DNA of 51,578 bases from Betaproteobacteria bacterium (GTDB lineage Bacteria > Pseudomonadota > Gammaproteobacteria > Burkholderiales > SG8-41): contig JACPTK010000073.1 in the NCBI GenBank assembly GCA_016192825.1, positions 1 to 51,578 on the forward strand, given 5' to 3'. A model generated the notes under the pieces. That model had not been told where the DNA came from. It ran no database searches and saw only the letters and a list, made by a program, of their open reading frames with translations. Below, one piece after another: positions 14,399 to 21,910 of the stretch. The position numbers and the translations under genes were made by a program. Numbering within the stretch: position 1 is the stretch's first letter; every line of letters begins with the position of its first letter.

Positions 14399-14629
14399 TT
14401 GAATAAGTTCAGCTTCGGCGGCAAGGGCATTGCCGCGTCAATGGCGGACGTACTGGCGCCGCGGCTTGGTGAACGCGATGCCTGTCATTGCAGGAGCGGC
14501 CGGGATATTCCAAGGAGCGCCTGAACTCATTGCACGAGGCCGGCGTTTTCCGATGAACAAGTTCAAGACGTGATGCGCGGCACGCTTCGGGTTACCAGGA
14601 TTCCGGCCGACAAAGGGCTGCGGTCATGA
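14399..14629 (+). pseudogene. 3' remnant of a CaiB/BaiF CoA-transferase gene
   Basis: The family C-terminal signature survives in two frames. A-P-R-L-G-E is encoded at 14456-14473, and GYSKERLNSLHEAGVF at 14503-14550. In intact CaiB proteins about nine residues (27 bases) separate these motifs; here 29 bases do, which is a frameshift. A second shift near 14550 leads into a tail (DEQVQDVMRGTLRVTRIP) ending at the TGA that overlaps the next start codon. The rest of the gene is gone. The operator-like site upstream suggests it was once the first gene of this operon. Confidence 0.6.
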
Positions 14630-15651
14630 GCATCGCTGTAACGCTACTGCCGGGCGACGGGATCGGGCCTGAGATCGTCCGCGCCGCTCGCCGCGTGGTA
14701 GATGCGACGGGTGTGCGGGTGGACTGGGAGGAGATGACTGCGGGTGAGCTGGCATACGGCCGCCAGGGCACACCGGTGCCGGAGGAGGTGCTCGCCAGTG
14801 CGCGCCGCAGCGGGCTGGTGCTCAAGGGACCGTTGACGAACCCCGGGGGAACGCCCTACGGCAGTCCCACGATCATGCTGCGCCGGCGTTTGGGCCTGTT
14901 TGCCAGCGTTCGCTGTGGACGGGCGGGTCCCGGCGTTCCGTCCCGGTTTCCCGGTATGGACCTCGTTATCGTGCGGGAGATCACCGAAGATGTTTCCGCC
15001 GAGTCCAGCCAGGCTGTTGGCGACCAGGGAGGAATCGCCATCCGGGTGATCACTCGTCCCGCTTCGCTTCGCGTTTCCCGCTTTGCCTTCGATCTGGCGC
15101 GTCGGCTTGGGCGGACCTGCATCACTGTCGCCCATGTTGCCACCAACTTCAAGACCACCGACGGACTGTTCCTTGCGGCTGCGAGAGAGGTGGCAGCGGC
15201 GTACCCGGACATCGGCCTGAACGATGAGTTATTGGACGCCGTCTGCCTGCACCTTATGCGAAACCCCGCTCGGGTGGACATGCTGCTGACCCCCAACTTC
15301 TACGGCAATTTCCTCAGCGGGCTGATCGCCGGCATGGCGGGCAGCGTGGGAATGCAGTCGGGAGCCGACTACGGAGAGGGTGTCGCCATGTTCGAGGCTG
15401 GGCACGGCACTCTGCCCAGGCATGCGGGCAAGGACCTGGCCAACCCCGCCGGATTGATTCTTGCCGCGGCTCTCCTGCTGGACCACGCCGGGGAGACCCA
15501 GGCGGGCCAGGCCATCCGGAATGCGGTGGACTGCGTAACCGCTGCCGGCCGCGACGTGACTTACGATCTGGGAGGCGCCGCCGGGACCCAGGCCATGGCC
15601 GACGCAATTGTTGCCAGTCTTGGCGCGGAGGCAGGCATTAAGGCTGCATGA
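14626..15651 (+). CDS. Isocitrate/isopropylmalate dehydrogenase-family protein, catalytic residues replaced
   Basis: This 341-residue protein has the decarboxylating beta-hydroxyacid dehydrogenase fold. It keeps LLPGDGIGPEI near the N-terminus, the RRRLGLFASVR substrate-loop arginines and D204. The catalytic tyrosine of the NTEGxY motif is Ser124 (REITEDVSAES). The catalytic lysine of HKANxxK is Val171 (AHVATNFKTTDGLF). Two metal-binding aspartates of YGDxxSD are Asn228 and Gly232 (FYGNFLSGLIAG). Oxidative decarboxylation therefore looks impossible by the normal mechanism. The frame is intact and the fold residues are conserved, so this is probably a pseudoenzyme or a repurposed enzyme, not a decaying gene. 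It lies directly upstream of the UGSC selenoprotein gene. Confidence 0.85.
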   Translation: MSIAVTLLPGDGIGPEIVRAARRVVDATGVRVDWEEMTAGELAYGRQGTPVPEEVLASARRSGLVLKGPLTNPGGTPYGSPTIMLRRRLGLFASVRCGRAGPGVPSRFPGMDLVIVREITEDVSAESSQAVGDQGGIAIRVITRPASLRVSRFAFDLARRLGRTCITVAHVATNFKTTDGLFLAAAREVAAAYPDIGLNDELLDAVCLHLMRNPARVDMLLTPNFYGNFLSGLIAGMAGSVGMQSGADYGEGVAMFEAGHGTLPRHAGKDLANPAGLILAAALLLDHAGETQAGQAIRNAVDCVTAAGRDVTYDLGGAAGTQAMADAIVASLGAEAGIKAA

Positions 15652-15728: not shown

Positions 15729-16268
15729 ATGAGCAAGACGAACACCTTTATCATCCCGGTTGCGCCGGTGCGGCAGCGTGCGGCGGTCGCCCGCGGGCGC
15801 AAAGCCGCCGGCACGGGCATTCGGTTTGGCGTCCTTGATAACGGCAAAGCCAACGCAGATCATTTGCTCAGCTTGCTCGTTGAAGGCTTGCGCGCGGCAT
15901 TGCCCGTCAGCTCCGTCGTATCGCTGCGAAAGCGCAGCGCGGCTGATGGTGCCGACGTCGCCATCCTCGATCAACTCGCGGCAGAGGCGGATTTCGTTGT
16001 CAGTGCAATGGCAGACTGAGGTGCCTGCACGTCGTGGAGTGTCCACGACATGGCTGATCTGAGGCGCCGAGGCCCGGCAACGGCAGTGGTGTGTTCCGAC
16101 GCTTTTCTCGGATTGGCGCGGAACCAGGCAAAGGTGTTCGGAGTTCCGGAAATGCCGCTCATCGTCATTCCCCATCCTCTGGGCGGGGTTCCGATGACTG
16201 AAATCAAGGCGCGCGCCGAAGGCGCGCTCCCTCAACTTCTCGACCAGTTGCGGGAGTATCTGCGATGA
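15729..16268 (+). CDS. UGSC-family selenoprotein (UGA read as selenocysteine at residue 97)
   Basis: The ATG at 15729 follows GGAGAGGG. The frame meets TGA at 16017-16019 and continues in the same frame for 83 more codons to a TGA at 16266, giving 179 residues. Across the TGA the protein reads SAMAD-U-GACTSWSVHDM, the signature of the UGSC family, whose redox motif is U/C-G-S-C; here it is UGAC. The part after the TGA (ARNQAKVFGVPEMPLIVIPHPLGG) is also family sequence. A perfect hairpin follows the TGA (see SECIS). The downstream gene overlaps the final stop by ATGA, which only makes sense if translation passes the internal TGA. It probably acts as a thiol/selenol redox protein; the substrate is unknown. 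Ordinary gene calling would split it in two. Confidence 0.9.
16017..16049 (+). promoter_or_regulatory. Selenocysteine UGA codon and bacterial SECIS element
   Basis: UGA at 16017-16019 is followed 11 bases later by GTCGTGGA (16031-16038), loop GTG, then TCCACGAC (16042-16049), a perfect 8-bp stem. The loop guanines lie 20 and 22 bases after the UGA, within the spacing known for bacterial SECIS elements that recruit SelB. Confidence 0.85.
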
Positions 16269-17380
16269 ACGGGCTTGGACCGTTGCTGCGTGACCCCGAA
16301 GCGAGCTTCGAGGCGGAAGATGATTACGAGAGGCTCAACGACCTCTATTTTGAGCGCGGCTGGAGCGATGGGCTTCCGGTTATTCCGCCCAGCATCAGGC
16401 GCGTTGAGAAAATGCTCGCTTACTGCGATCGGCCCTGGGACAAGCCGGTGGGATTGATACCGCCACGCTGGGGCGAGGCGACCCCCTGGCGCCTGGCGGC
16501 GAACGCGGTCATGGCGGGATGTCAACCGCGGTACTTCCCGTTGGTCGTGCTGGCGATCGAGGCGATGTGTCATGAGGAGTTCAACCTCTACGGGATCCAG
16601 GCCACGACCCACCTCTGTGCGCCCTTGGTCATCGTGAATGGGCCTGTGGCGCGCGAACTCGAGATCAACTGTGGGCACAATGCTTTCGGCCCGGGCTGGC
16701 GCAGCAACGCGACGATCGGGCGCGCCGTGCGCCTGGCATTGGTGAACATCGGTGGCGCCGTGCCGGGGAGCGGTGACATGGCGACATTCGGCTCTCCGGC
16801 GAAATTCAGCTATTGCATTGCCGAGAACGAGCAGGCAAGCCCATGGGAGCCGCTGCATGTGGAGCGGGGTTTTCCACGTGACGCGAGCACCGTCACCGTG
16901 GTCGGCGCTGAAGCACCGCACAACGTGAACGATCATGAAAGCGCCACGGCGGAGGGCGTTCTCAGGATGATAGCCGGTACGGCGGCCACGACCGGCACCA
17001 ACGATATTGCCTACTCCGGAGAGCCGGTGATCGCTTTTAGCCCCGAGCATGCCGCGACCGTGGCGGCGGGCGGCTGGTCGAAAGCGGAAGCCAAACGCTG
17101 CCTCTGGGACCACGCGTGGCTTCCGCTCGGACGCTTTTCCGAGGAAAACATCGAACGCCGCATGCGCGTGAAGTTTCCCGAGCGCTTGGCGAACGCCGGG
17201 CCCGACACGCCCGTGCCGCTGGTCCAGCGTCCGAAGGATCTTATCTTCATCGTGTTGGGCGGCGCGGGAAAGCACAGCGCTTTCATTCCGACGTTTGGCG
17301 CGACGCGTTCCGTCACGCTGCCGTTGCGCCGCCGCGACGGGGAGTGCGTGCATTCGGTGGAGGAGTTGCGAGGCGCTTGA
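16265..17380 (+). CDS. Conserved protein coupled to the UGSC selenoprotein, function unknown
   Basis: I cannot place this 371-residue protein in a family of known function. The ATG at 16265 overlaps the selenoprotein stop (ATGA), indicating translational coupling and probably a joint role. It is soluble by eye, with no signal peptide. Notable segments are ERGWSDGLPVIPPS near residue 35, GVLRMIAGTAATTGTND in the middle, and GGAGKHSAFIPTFGA near the end. Eight cysteines are spread along the chain (YCDRP, AGCQPR, AMCHEE, HLCAP, NCGHN, SYCIAE, RCLWD, ECVHS), so thiol chemistry with the selenoprotein is possible. Confidence 0.85.
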   Translation: MNGLGPLLRDPEASFEAEDDYERLNDLYFERGWSDGLPVIPPSIRRVEKMLAYCDRPWDKPVGLIPPRWGEATPWRLAANAVMAGCQPRYFPLVVLAIEAMCHEEFNLYGIQATTHLCAPLVIVNGPVARELEINCGHNAFGPGWRSNATIGRAVRLALVNIGGAVPGSGDMATFGSPAKFSYCIAENEQASPWEPLHVERGFPRDASTVTVVGAEAPHNVNDHESATAEGVLRMIAGTAATTGTNDIAYSGEPVIAFSPEHAATVAAGGWSKAEAKRCLWDHAWLPLGRFSEENIERRMRVKFPERLANAGPDTPVPLVQRPKDLIFIVLGGAGKHSAFIPTFGATRSVTLPLRRRDGECVHSVEELRGA

Positions 17381-17464: not shown

Positions 17465-17558
17465 ATTTCATATCCTGATATTCTCGGCCGAAGCTTGCGC
17501 CGCGTACGTGGCACGCAAATAATCGGTGCATAAAAACGGAACGAAAGCGAGGTGGATC

Positions 17559-18545
17559 GTGTCGCTGCTCTCATTATCGAAATTGCGCGTGCTGCTGGTC
17601 CTGTCGTTGGGCATGCTTGCAGGATTACTTGCTGCGCCGACTGTGGCCCAGACATATCCCGCTCGTCCTGTCCGGATCGTCGTGCCGTTCTCGCCCGGCG
17701 GCGGTACTGACATACTTGCGCGACTCATTGCGCAGAAGCTGACACAGTCTCTTGGGCAGCAAGTGATTGTCGACAACCGGCCCGGCGCCGGCAGCAGGAT
17801 CGGTACGGAAATCGTCGTGAGAGCCACACCCGACGGCTACACGTTCCTCATGGTGTCGGCAACTTATGCGGTCAACGCCGCCATCTACCGCCTGGATTTT
17901 GACCCGGCCAAAGATCTTTTGCCGGTCGCGCAGATGGCATCTGTACCATTCGTTCTCGTCGCGCATCCTTCTCTGCCCGTCTCCAACGTTAAGGAGTTGA
18001 TTGCGCTCGCAAAGGCCAGGCCGGGACAGATTATCTACGCGTCCACGGGGAATGGCTCGTCCCCGCATCTGGCAGGCGAGCTACTGGCCATGATGACCAA
18101 CGTGCGCATGGTCCACGTTCCCTACAAAGGCGGGGGACCGGCGATGATCGACCTGCTGTCCGGGCAGGTGCAATTGCTGTTCAATACGGTAGTTCAGAGT
18201 CTGCCGCACATCAATTCGGGCAGGCTGAAACCGCTCGCGGTGGGAAGCCTGAAGCGCTCTTCGGTGTTGCCGCAGGTAATGACGATCGATGAATCAGGGG
18301 TACGTGGCTACGACATCACCAACTGGTTCGGTCTGCTGGTGCCCGGGAAGACGCCCCAATCGATCGTGGCTCGGATCAACCGCGACGTGGTTCAGCACCT
18401 TCAGGCCGCCGATTTCAAGGCTCAGCTTGTCAGGCAAGGAGCCGAACCCGCCGGCGGAACCCCCGCAGATTTCGGGAAGCTAATCCGCGGCGATATTGCA
18501 AAATTCTCCCGCATCGTCAAGGCCGCGGGAATACGCATAGAGTGA
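17559..18545 (+). CDS. Bug/TctC-family periplasmic solute receptor
   Basis: This receptor of about 328 residues has a long hydrophobic signal segment (LLVLSLGMLAGLLAAPTVAQ) and then the family motif YPARPVRIVVPFSPGGGTDILAR. The YASTGNGSSPHLAGELL and VHVPYKGGGPAMIDLL motifs confirm the family. I prefer the GTG at 17559, which has GAGG six bases upstream, to the GTG at 17526. It is preceded by a candidate IclR operator, so it is probably induced with the rest of the cluster and captures its growth substrate. It converges with the MaoC-like gene after 26 bases. Confidence 0.9.
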   Translation: MSLLSLSKLRVLLVLSLGMLAGLLAAPTVAQTYPARPVRIVVPFSPGGGTDILARLIAQKLTQSLGQQVIVDNRPGAGSRIGTEIVVRATPDGYTFLMVSATYAVNAAIYRLDFDPAKDLLPVAQMASVPFVLVAHPSLPVSNVKELIALAKARPGQIIYASTGNGSSPHLAGELLAMMTNVRMVHVPYKGGGPAMIDLLSGQVQLLFNTVVQSLPHINSGRLKPLAVGSLKRSSVLPQVMTIDESGVRGYDITNWFGLLVPGKTPQSIVARINRDVVQHLQAADFKAQLVRQGAEPAGGTPADFGKLIRGDIAKFSRIVKAAGIRIE

Positions 18546-21071: not shown

Positions 21072-21121
21072 CTTATTACGACAGGCTGTCCTAGCGGTCC
21101 CTGCCGCCGAAGGTGCATGAC

Positions 21122-21910
21122 ATGGTGAAATCGCGCCGGCGATCCGGCACGCAGAGCGTCGAGCGCGCGGTGCTGCTGTTGAAGGAAATAACGGTGCGCA
21201 GCGAGGTCGGCTGGCGGCTGCTCGACCTGTCGGTGCAGTGTGGCCTCGACCGCGGAACGACGCACCGGCTGGTGTCCTGCCTGGTCCGAGAGCGGCTGGC
21301 GCAGCAGCATCCGGTGAACCGTCGCTATTTCCCCGGGCCACTGCTGTTCGAGCTCGGGCAGTCGCTTCCGGCGTACGCGCGGTTTGTCGCGGCCTGCGGC
21401 CCGGCGCTCAGCCGGGTCGCGAAGCGTATCGGCGGCACGGCTTTGCTCTATCTGCGCAGCGGGGACGATTTTGTGTGCACGGCGCGCGTCGGGTATGTGC
21501 CGATCAAGGCGTTGACCATCGACGCCGGTACGCGGCGGCCGCTCATTGTTTCCGTGGGTGGCGTGGCCATATTGATTGCCTTGCCGCGAGAGGAGGCGCG
21601 CGCGCTGATTGCGCGGAATCTGAAGCGGGTCGCCCGATTCGGTGCGGTCCGAATCCGCTCGCTGGAGCGGGTGATCCGGCAATCGGAGAGCCGGGGCTAC
21701 GGCATCAGCCAGAGCGAGATCGTGCCTGGCGTGAATGCCTATGGCGTTGCGGTTCGCGATGCCGATGGCGTCCCGTTTGGTTCTATCAGCGTGGTCGGGT
21801 CGGCGGAGACGTTTCCGCAAACGAGGGTGCCCGAGGTCATCGCGGCGCTGGAAGAGGAATCCCACTGGATTTCTCTGCAGTCAGTCCGTAACATCTCGAC
21901 AAACCGATGA
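21122..21910 (+). CDS. IclR-family transcriptional regulator
   Basis: This 262-residue regulator has an N-terminal winged helix (SGTQSVERAVLLLKEI, then CGLDRGTTHRLVSCLVRERLAQ) and a C-terminal IclR effector-binding domain with the RSGDDFVCTARVG and ESRGYGISQSEIVPGVNAYGVAV segments. The ATG at 21122 has GAAGG eight bases upstream. It is divergent from the CoA-transferase gene and followed after 22 bases by the old-yellow-enzyme gene. The three TTCACATTGTAAA-like sites in the cluster are its most likely targets; the effector is presumably a pathway substrate. Confidence 0.92.
   Translation: MVKSRRRSGTQSVERAVLLLKEITVRSEVGWRLLDLSVQCGLDRGTTHRLVSCLVRERLAQQHPVNRRYFPGPLLFELGQSLPAYARFVAACGPALSRVAKRIGGTALLYLRSGDDFVCTARVGYVPIKALTIDAGTRRPLIVSVGGVAILIALPREEARALIARNLKRVARFGAVRIRSLERVIRQSESRGYGISQSEIVPGVNAYGVAVRDADGVPFGSISVVGSAETFPQTRVPEVIAALEEESHWISLQSVRNISTNR

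Follow-up and report, generated by a model that had tools for sequence, protein, structure and literature searches.

The UGSC family is among the major selenoprotein families of ocean and lake metagenomes, in which 255 selenocysteine (Sec) forms were recorded against 21 cysteine forms, and a selenoprotein of thioredoxin-like fold was suggested in the accessible text of the same report (PMC2398784). Proteins carrying the UGSC motif have also been described in Geodermatophilaceae, together with a tRNA-Sec of anticodon CUA (PMC5330540), and in a 2016 survey covering over 5200 bacterial genomes, the entry for UGSC carries the figures 26 and 33, taken here as organisms and genes (PMC5029168). A further point of comparison is offered by protein B and PrdB, as UxxCxxC is the motif of GrdB (PMC13188914) and GrdB-like proteins have been proposed to cleave the C-F bond of fluoroacetate (PMC10838667). 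Neither a function of UGSC nor a link to GrdB is stated in the accessible text of PMC2398784, PMC13188914, PMC9312934, PMC9402790, PMC12013277, PMC5029168, PMC7435645, PMC5330540, PMC7539508, and PMC10838667, in keeping with an earlier note on the present DNA, which knew of no assigned function. The expansion of the family described below is likewise unreported in the accessible text of these papers.

The locus considered here lies within a window of 51.6 kb, by which the whole stretch of DNA analyzed is meant, belonging to a genome (G000) of 5.1 Mb in 123 contigs which is 96 percent complete and 5 percent contaminated. The UGSC gene (positions 15729 to 16268, plus strand) starts with ATG at 15729, contains an in-frame TGA at 16017 to 16019, and ends with the next stop, TGA, at 16266 to 16268; readthrough of positions 15729 to 16265 yields 179 residues, with Sec as residue 97 and the residue order U97-G98-A99-C100. 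The joined sequence produces one match to the Pfam family PF24696 (UGSC), which spans Sec (residues 9 to 175, E = 9e-42, 143.5 bits, the cut-off being 25), and reaches 121.2 bits with the NCBIfam model NF041046 (“UGSC family (seleno)protein”), slightly below the equivalog cut-off of 125; as this latter score is borderline, the window protein is filed under the Pfam family and not as an NF041046 equivalog. Features in common with the described family are the full-length match, the in-frame UGA, the U-G-x-C motif, and a SECIS-like stem. The window protein differs in carrying Ala in place of the Ser of UGSC, as the earlier note had also read, and in being encoded by a separate gene which overlaps that of a partner protein, whereas 8 of the 19 loci of its own genome have a partner-related domain in fusion with UGSC. 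The open frame through TGA and the family sequence on both of its sides, likewise claimed in that note, are borne out by the PF24696 match across Sec.

Several lines of evidence indicate that the internal TGA (16017 to 16019, plus strand) is read as Sec. A scan of named genomes confirmed 253 relatives, of which the best 80 were kept, their records being nearly all MAGs labelled Betaproteobacteria, Burkholderiales, or similar. TGA occupies the Sec site in all of these best 80 of 253 (78 through a motif search, and L161 and L183 through reading of the frame), as it does at 18 of the 19 UGSC loci of the own genome. Relative to the closest relative, L117, dN and dS amounted to 0.10 and 0.40 across the 73 codons upstream of TGA and to 0.069 and 0.484 across the 82 codons downstream; dN being lower than dS both before and after TGA, purifying selection is indicated for both halves. 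On the strength of these comparisons, of the Sec machinery, and of the stem described below, we regard it as virtually certain that positions 15729 to 16268 constitute a UGSC-family selenoprotein gene in which TGA is decoded as Sec. Were the TGA instead a true stop or an error, the gene would represent a truncated remnant, a reading for which the codon itself and the presence of one decayed copy (L028) elsewhere in the genome may be cited, but which is rendered extremely improbable by the invariance of TGA among the relatives, the low dN relative to dS after TGA, the conservation of the stem, and the Sec machinery of the genome. Standard gene calling truncates such genes at UGA, which also happened with the gene caller used here.

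The machinery in question comprises selA, selB, and tRNA-Sec (selC, anticodon TCA), which share a contig, and selD, which lies on another (C123) and the match to which contains one TGA; the search for selA, selB, selC, and selD which the earlier note had proposed thus returned all four genes and not the absence of all of them which it had held to speak against Sec. Between selB and selC, a thioredoxin-reductase-like flavoprotein is encoded (L001:462-1355, plus strand, G000:C50; TIGR01292, 240 bits against a cut-off of 343), and contig C20 specifies a second SelD-type protein, which is fused to a pyridine-nucleotide disulfide oxidoreductase domain (L086:3222-5756, minus strand).

A bacterial SECIS-like hairpin (16031 to 16049, plus strand) follows the Sec codon after a spacer of 11 bases (16020 to 16030), with positions 16031 to 16038 pairing with 16042 to 16049 around the loop GUG (16039 to 16041). 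The eight pairs, the G-containing loop, and the distance from UGA agree with the earlier description, and several of the stem pairs have changed on both sides across loci, such compensatory changes keeping the stem. A position-specific pair test was applied to 98 loci (18 own loci and 80 relatives, the best 80 of 253), which represent 41 distinct 36-base stretches, and all eight pairs were present in 33 of these, whereas 500 synonymous-codon shuffles retained them in 1.07 stretches on average and in 5 at most; the other 8 fail this test. In the window stretch itself, all eight pairs survived in 571 of 20000 synonymous recodings. The pair test was preferred because folding energy separates poorly: the window hairpin gave a z of -1.67, with 15 of 200 shuffles equally good (a weak test), and a z of -1.48 against synonymous recodings, just 6 of 18 own copies reached a z of -1.5 or lower, and L011, L014, L022, L023, and L027 folded no better than their own synonymous recodings. 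No Rfam match at gathering thresholds was obtained across the whole window.

Immediately downstream, a partner protein of 371 residues (16265 to 17380, plus strand) is encoded, the ATG of which, at 16265, overlaps the UGSC stop as ATGA, just as the earlier note had reported. A partner is fused to UGSC or located no more than 201 bp away at 18 of the 19 own loci, the separate genes occurring in either order, and the sole own locus without one (on C102) is situated at a contig end; among the called genes of 398 kb of background sequence, no partner match was found. Within the best 80 of 253 relatives, the partner lies no more than 300 bp from UGSC in 72, in 57 of which the UGSC stop reads ATGA as in the window, and the remaining 8 show no partner within the flanks examined. 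It is, therefore, almost certain, as judged from gene arrangement, that UGSC and the partner form a genomically tied pair, and this near-constant pairing, which represents the strongest functional clue, suggests that UGSC acts together with the partner. A fusion of UGSC to a conserved domain, Unknown_1, was previously described (Zhang and Gladyshev 2008, PMC2398784) and resembles the fused own-genome loci in that respect.

The partner is assigned to no Pfam or NCBIfam family, and at E ≤ 1 a set of 50 partner proteins produced scattered NCBIfam matches, none of which were to selenoprotein-B/PrdB models. A sequence search for solved relatives returned no matches, and the AlphaFold2 model (pLDDT 85.5) has no clear fold match, the best Foldseek result being at an E value of 2.5e-3 and a TM score of 0.23. 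Class I fumarases, cyclic amide hydrolases, and CyuA, which appeared with TM scores of about 0.2, were discarded as too weak. Profile alignment with hhalign gave probabilities of 1 to 2 percent against GrdB profiles (three GrdB sequences) and of 0.2 percent against two GrdE-type proteins, and PF09338, representing the GrdE/PrdA-type second subunit, was not matched.

UGSC itself presents a different picture with respect to protein B. When the 18 aligned own members were scanned against NCBIfam at E ≤ 10, all 18 matched their own UGSC model, followed by five selenoprotein-B/PrdB models, namely TIGR01917 (13 of 18), TIGR04483 (9 of 18, best 5.7e-6), NF040794 (8), NF040795 (7), and TIGR01918 (7), the next family being matched by 2. 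All of the selenoprotein-B/PrdB matches lie far below the family cut-offs, that of the window protein to TIGR01917 being at E = 0.029 and 13.3 bits against 602.2. Alignment of UGSC with full-length GrdB (three sequences of this lineage) yielded hhalign probabilities of 86.6 and 90.2 percent with Sec placed on Sec, compared with no more than 0.5 percent in five control alignments; PrdB-like small proteins gave 18.9 and 2.8 percent alone, which counts against homology, and 76.6 percent when pooled with GrdB. No UGSC member matched PF07355 at E ≤ 1, the matched part of that model ending at Sec. The UxxCxxC motif occurs in 4 of the 18 aligned own members (L010, L011, L014, and L021), and the Cys at Sec+3 is kept in 17; the window motif is UGACTSW and not UxxCxxC, with Trp in place of the third motif Cys of GrdB.

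Likenesses to protein B and PrdB (TIGR01917, TIGR01918, NF040794, NF040795, and TIGR04483) extend to the residues G-[ST]-C-T directly after Sec in several UGSC copies, to otherwise similar post-Sec residues, to a second protein encoded alongside, to the presence of many paralogs, and to neighboring TctC genes, which stand at two of three GrdB loci of this lineage. UGSC differs in scoring below all of the family cut-offs, in being too short to include the N-terminal part of GrdB, in having a partner without detectable likeness to GrdE, and in residing in a genome without detected GrdA. We consider it likely, from these profile comparisons, that the Sec domain of UGSC is distantly homologous to that of GrdB/PrdB, a relationship which falls short of family membership. 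A comparable arrangement is found in the fluoroacetate reductase operon farACEB, in which a predicted Sec-containing GrdB-like protein, a second subunit, and a transporter are proposed to serve one organic acid; this operon differs in that its proteins are GrdB/GrdE-related by name, in its occurrence in Synergistota, and in its radical SAM gene (PMC10838667).

GrdA (PF04723) was present in G003 and G010, and gave no match in G000 (96 percent complete) or in G086. Among the three full-length GrdB loci of the lineage that were examined, L087 and L088 have a TctC gene as neighbor, and L088 and L089 one of GrdE type. All 24 of the PF07355 loci examined (30 were fetched) read on through TGA; among six such loci from a phylum-wide search, the one from the own genome reads through TGA and the five from other genomes have Cys. 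A second Sec family of the own genome is represented by a PrdB-like protein on C20 (L198:721-2109, minus strand), the stop-to-stop length of which is 463 residues (102.6 bits with TIGR04483, the cut-off being 300) and the PF07355 match of which extends up to an in-frame TGA with PNCTC after it, the identical TGA context being found at 21 loci in relatives.

The AlphaFold2 model of UGSC (pLDDT 86.1) consists of five alternating beta-alpha units, with Sec97 located immediately before the helix formed by residues 98 to 114, and this predicted fold is read here as flavodoxin-like, not thioredoxin-like as had been suggested. Foldseek matches to the PDB were generic, a glycosidase domain being the best (E 1.5e-4, TM 0.52), with flavodiiron and flavodoxin-like proteins as well as FtsZ among the further matches; no GrdB structure was present among the 50 matches listed. 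In a sequence search for a solved relative, the best candidate was adenosylhomocysteinase (E 0.042), which was discarded.

In the window, the UGSC gene forms part of a run in which an isocitrate/isopropylmalate-dehydrogenase-family enzyme (14626 to 15651, plus strand; PF00180, E = 2.2e-69) is encoded directly upstream and is possibly in one transcription unit with UGSC, and a TctC/Bug periplasmic solute-binding protein, a component of organic acid uptake (17526 to 18545, plus strand; PF03401, E = 3e-72), is encoded downstream of the partner. This order of dehydrogenase, UGSC, partner, and TctC is repeated in L117, the sole case among the best 80 of 253 relatives. TctC genes lie no more than 3 kb from 15 of the 19 own UGSC loci, as compared with 56 of 208 background genes, and occur at a density of 1.11 per 10 kb against 0.45 in the background (18 in 398 kb), an enrichment which is to be taken as indicative, as the background regions were chosen by hand; TctC is also present at 38 of the relatives' loci (best 80 of 253). 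MmgE/PrpD, DHDPS-family, and amidohydrolase genes are found near some UGSC copies. Across these neighborhoods, the partner and, less strictly, TctC recur with UGSC.

The frequency of TctC across the genome (18 genes in 398 kb of background) favors a rival reading in which UGSC, in line with the published view of a selenoprotein of thioredoxin-like fold, would act as a general-purpose thiol/disulfide or peroxide oxidoreductase and would have been multiplied for antioxidant defense, its TctC neighborhood being incidental. The UxxC motif is compatible with such a role; nevertheless, we consider it unlikely, as the modelled fold is read as flavodoxin-like and not thioredoxin-like, the partner is large and near-obligate, and dozens of divergent copies, many of which stand beside organic-acid uptake genes, fit general defense poorly.

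The earlier note had placed the UGSC gene in an IclR-controlled cluster for the catabolism of CoA thioesters. The IclR gene (21113 to 21910) is located approximately 2.6 kb past the end of the UGSC-partner-TctC run, beyond two genes on the minus strand. When 17 own-genome UGSC regions (11 to 20 kb each, and 51.6 kb in the case of the window) were compared using phmmer at E ≤ 1e-10, none of the other 16 harbored a homolog of the window IclR, acyl-CoA dehydrogenase, family III CoA-transferases, citryl-CoA-lyase-like protein, or MaoC. CoA-transferase homologs were seen at 7 and MaoC at 1 of the relatives' loci (best 80 of 253), the flanks of which, at 3 kb or less, are too short for IclR or acyl-CoA dehydrogenase. 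Nothing, therefore, links the IclR and CoA genes to UGSC generally, though they could still serve the window copy. The earlier interpretation is accordingly supported in part: it stands as regards the UGSC family, the Sec codon, the SECIS-like stem, the Ala for Ser, and the gene overlap, and finds no support as regards IclR control. What the present analysis adds is the other 18 UGSC loci of this genome, recognition of the partner, and the likeness to GrdB/PrdB.

The best explanation of these data, to which we give an even chance as a whole, is that UGSC and its partner form a two-part GrdB/PrdB-like reductase for organic acids imported via TctC. As regards its parts, that the pair reduces TctC-imported acids is held with slightly less confidence than this, the substrate and chemistry being deduced indirectly, and the cleavage of a carbon-heteroatom bond is a tentative suggestion, the type of bond being derived by analogy. 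UGSC would be related to the domain of protein B (GrdB/GrdF/GrdH) and PrdB that bears Sec, but would stand alone as a protein; its Sec97, placed where a helix begins within a flavodoxin-like domain, would constitute a selenol/thiol pair with Cys100. The partner would bind and position one specific organic acid imported by the neighboring TctC system, following which the selenolate would attack or reduce the acid such that a carbon-heteroatom bond beside the carboxylate, or a similarly activated bond, is broken, and the resulting Se-S bridge would be reset by a thioredoxin-type donor. As the search of the own genome for GrdA gave no match, its UGSC proteins are probably not feeding a glycine reductase of the classical kind; a donor of thioredoxin type seems likelier, with a thioredoxin-reductase-like gene lying between selB and selC. 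The many paralogs, with their differing TctC and catabolic neighbors, would be substrate versions, in the manner of the protein B variants of amino-acid fermenters.

Chemistry without net redox change may also be envisaged for the TctC-imported acids, the pair acting as an isomerase, lyase, or transferase with the selenol as covalent nucleophile. The very weak structural neighbors of the partner, being hydro-lyases (class I fumarase) and cyclic amide hydrolases, point in this direction, as do the MmgE/PrpD, DHDPS-family, and amidohydrolase genes near some copies; set against this are TM scores of just about 0.2 and the Cys at Sec+3, the retention of which in 17 of the 18 aligned own members points to resetting by redox chemistry. 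Sec is, moreover, seldom retained for non-redox chemistry, and a nonreductive role is consequently judged improbable. The reductase reading remains preferred, and the near-obligate partner, the probable protein B root, and the link to organic-acid uptake together provide what had been an “unknown redox protein” with an enzyme hypothesis that can be tested.

The own genome contains 19 UGSC loci, of which 18 have exactly one TGA; 17 of these look intact and one, L028 (G000:C30:15588-15746), is a decayed UGSC-partner remnant in which the Sec region is joined directly to the middle of the partner. The 17 other own copies aligned to the window protein share 17 to 63 percent identity with it. The nineteenth locus, L015 (G000:C108:19839-20342), is a fused copy with Cys for Sec and Ser for the second Cys (CGTS), and stop-free matches in open reading frames of comparable length (545 to 552 residues) were observed in G012, G027, and G039. 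At L073 (G000:C53:28255-31669), two UGSC genes lie on the same strand approximately 0.14 kb apart, with a partner gene on each side.

The distribution of the family was assessed in 80 genomes, the own genome included, and UGSC was detected in 51, comprising all 48 of the own taxonomic family and 3 of 32 from the rest of the order, counts which represent lower bounds, as up to 37 candidates were scored. When 397 other genomes were drawn from across the phylum, UGSC was present in 4, with 1 or 2 matches each, these counts again being lower bounds (up to 8 candidates scored per genome). The genome G010 (98 percent complete, 2 percent contaminated) yielded 58 UGSC matches, among which 51 have exactly one TGA and no further stop, 4 are stop-free, and 3 have a second stop; some of these other seven are fragments, and one lies below the cut-off. 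Pairwise identity among the best-scoring 30 of the 51 reaches a maximum of 69 percent, with a median of 34 percent, and the G010 copies are, therefore, not strain duplicates. When the 18 own copies and these 30 from G010 were placed in one tree, the two sets proved intermixed, with 11 label changes against a shuffled mean of 14.9 (10 of 500 shuffles being as low), which indicates that much UGSC diversity is older than the split of the own genome and G010 and that some clusters expanded later.

The copy number of G010 is of significance, its 51 single-TGA UGSC loci comparing with the figures 26 and 33 listed in the 2016 survey (PMC5029168). With the addition of one GrdA match with TGA and a GrdB with TGA (L089), at least 53 Sec genes are predicted in G010; the published maxima, for all selenoproteins per bacterium or MAG, are given as 57 and 63 in the accessible text of PMC13188914 and as 39 and 46 in that of PMC12013277. 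A broader proposition, which we regard as speculative and rather doubtful, is that an uncultured Burkholderiales family practices selenium-based reductive catabolism with up to dozens of substrate-specific UGSC-partner/TctC cassettes per genome, representing a protein-B-like class without GrdA and with a new second subunit. If true, its selenoproteomes would approach the largest published and would consist mostly of one family. Several of the UGSC-bearing MAGs (L130, L142, L145, L152, L153, and others) are titled “Bordetella parapertussis” or “Chitinophaga pinensis” and carry Betaproteobacteria-like UGSC genes; these titles look like mislabelled taxa.
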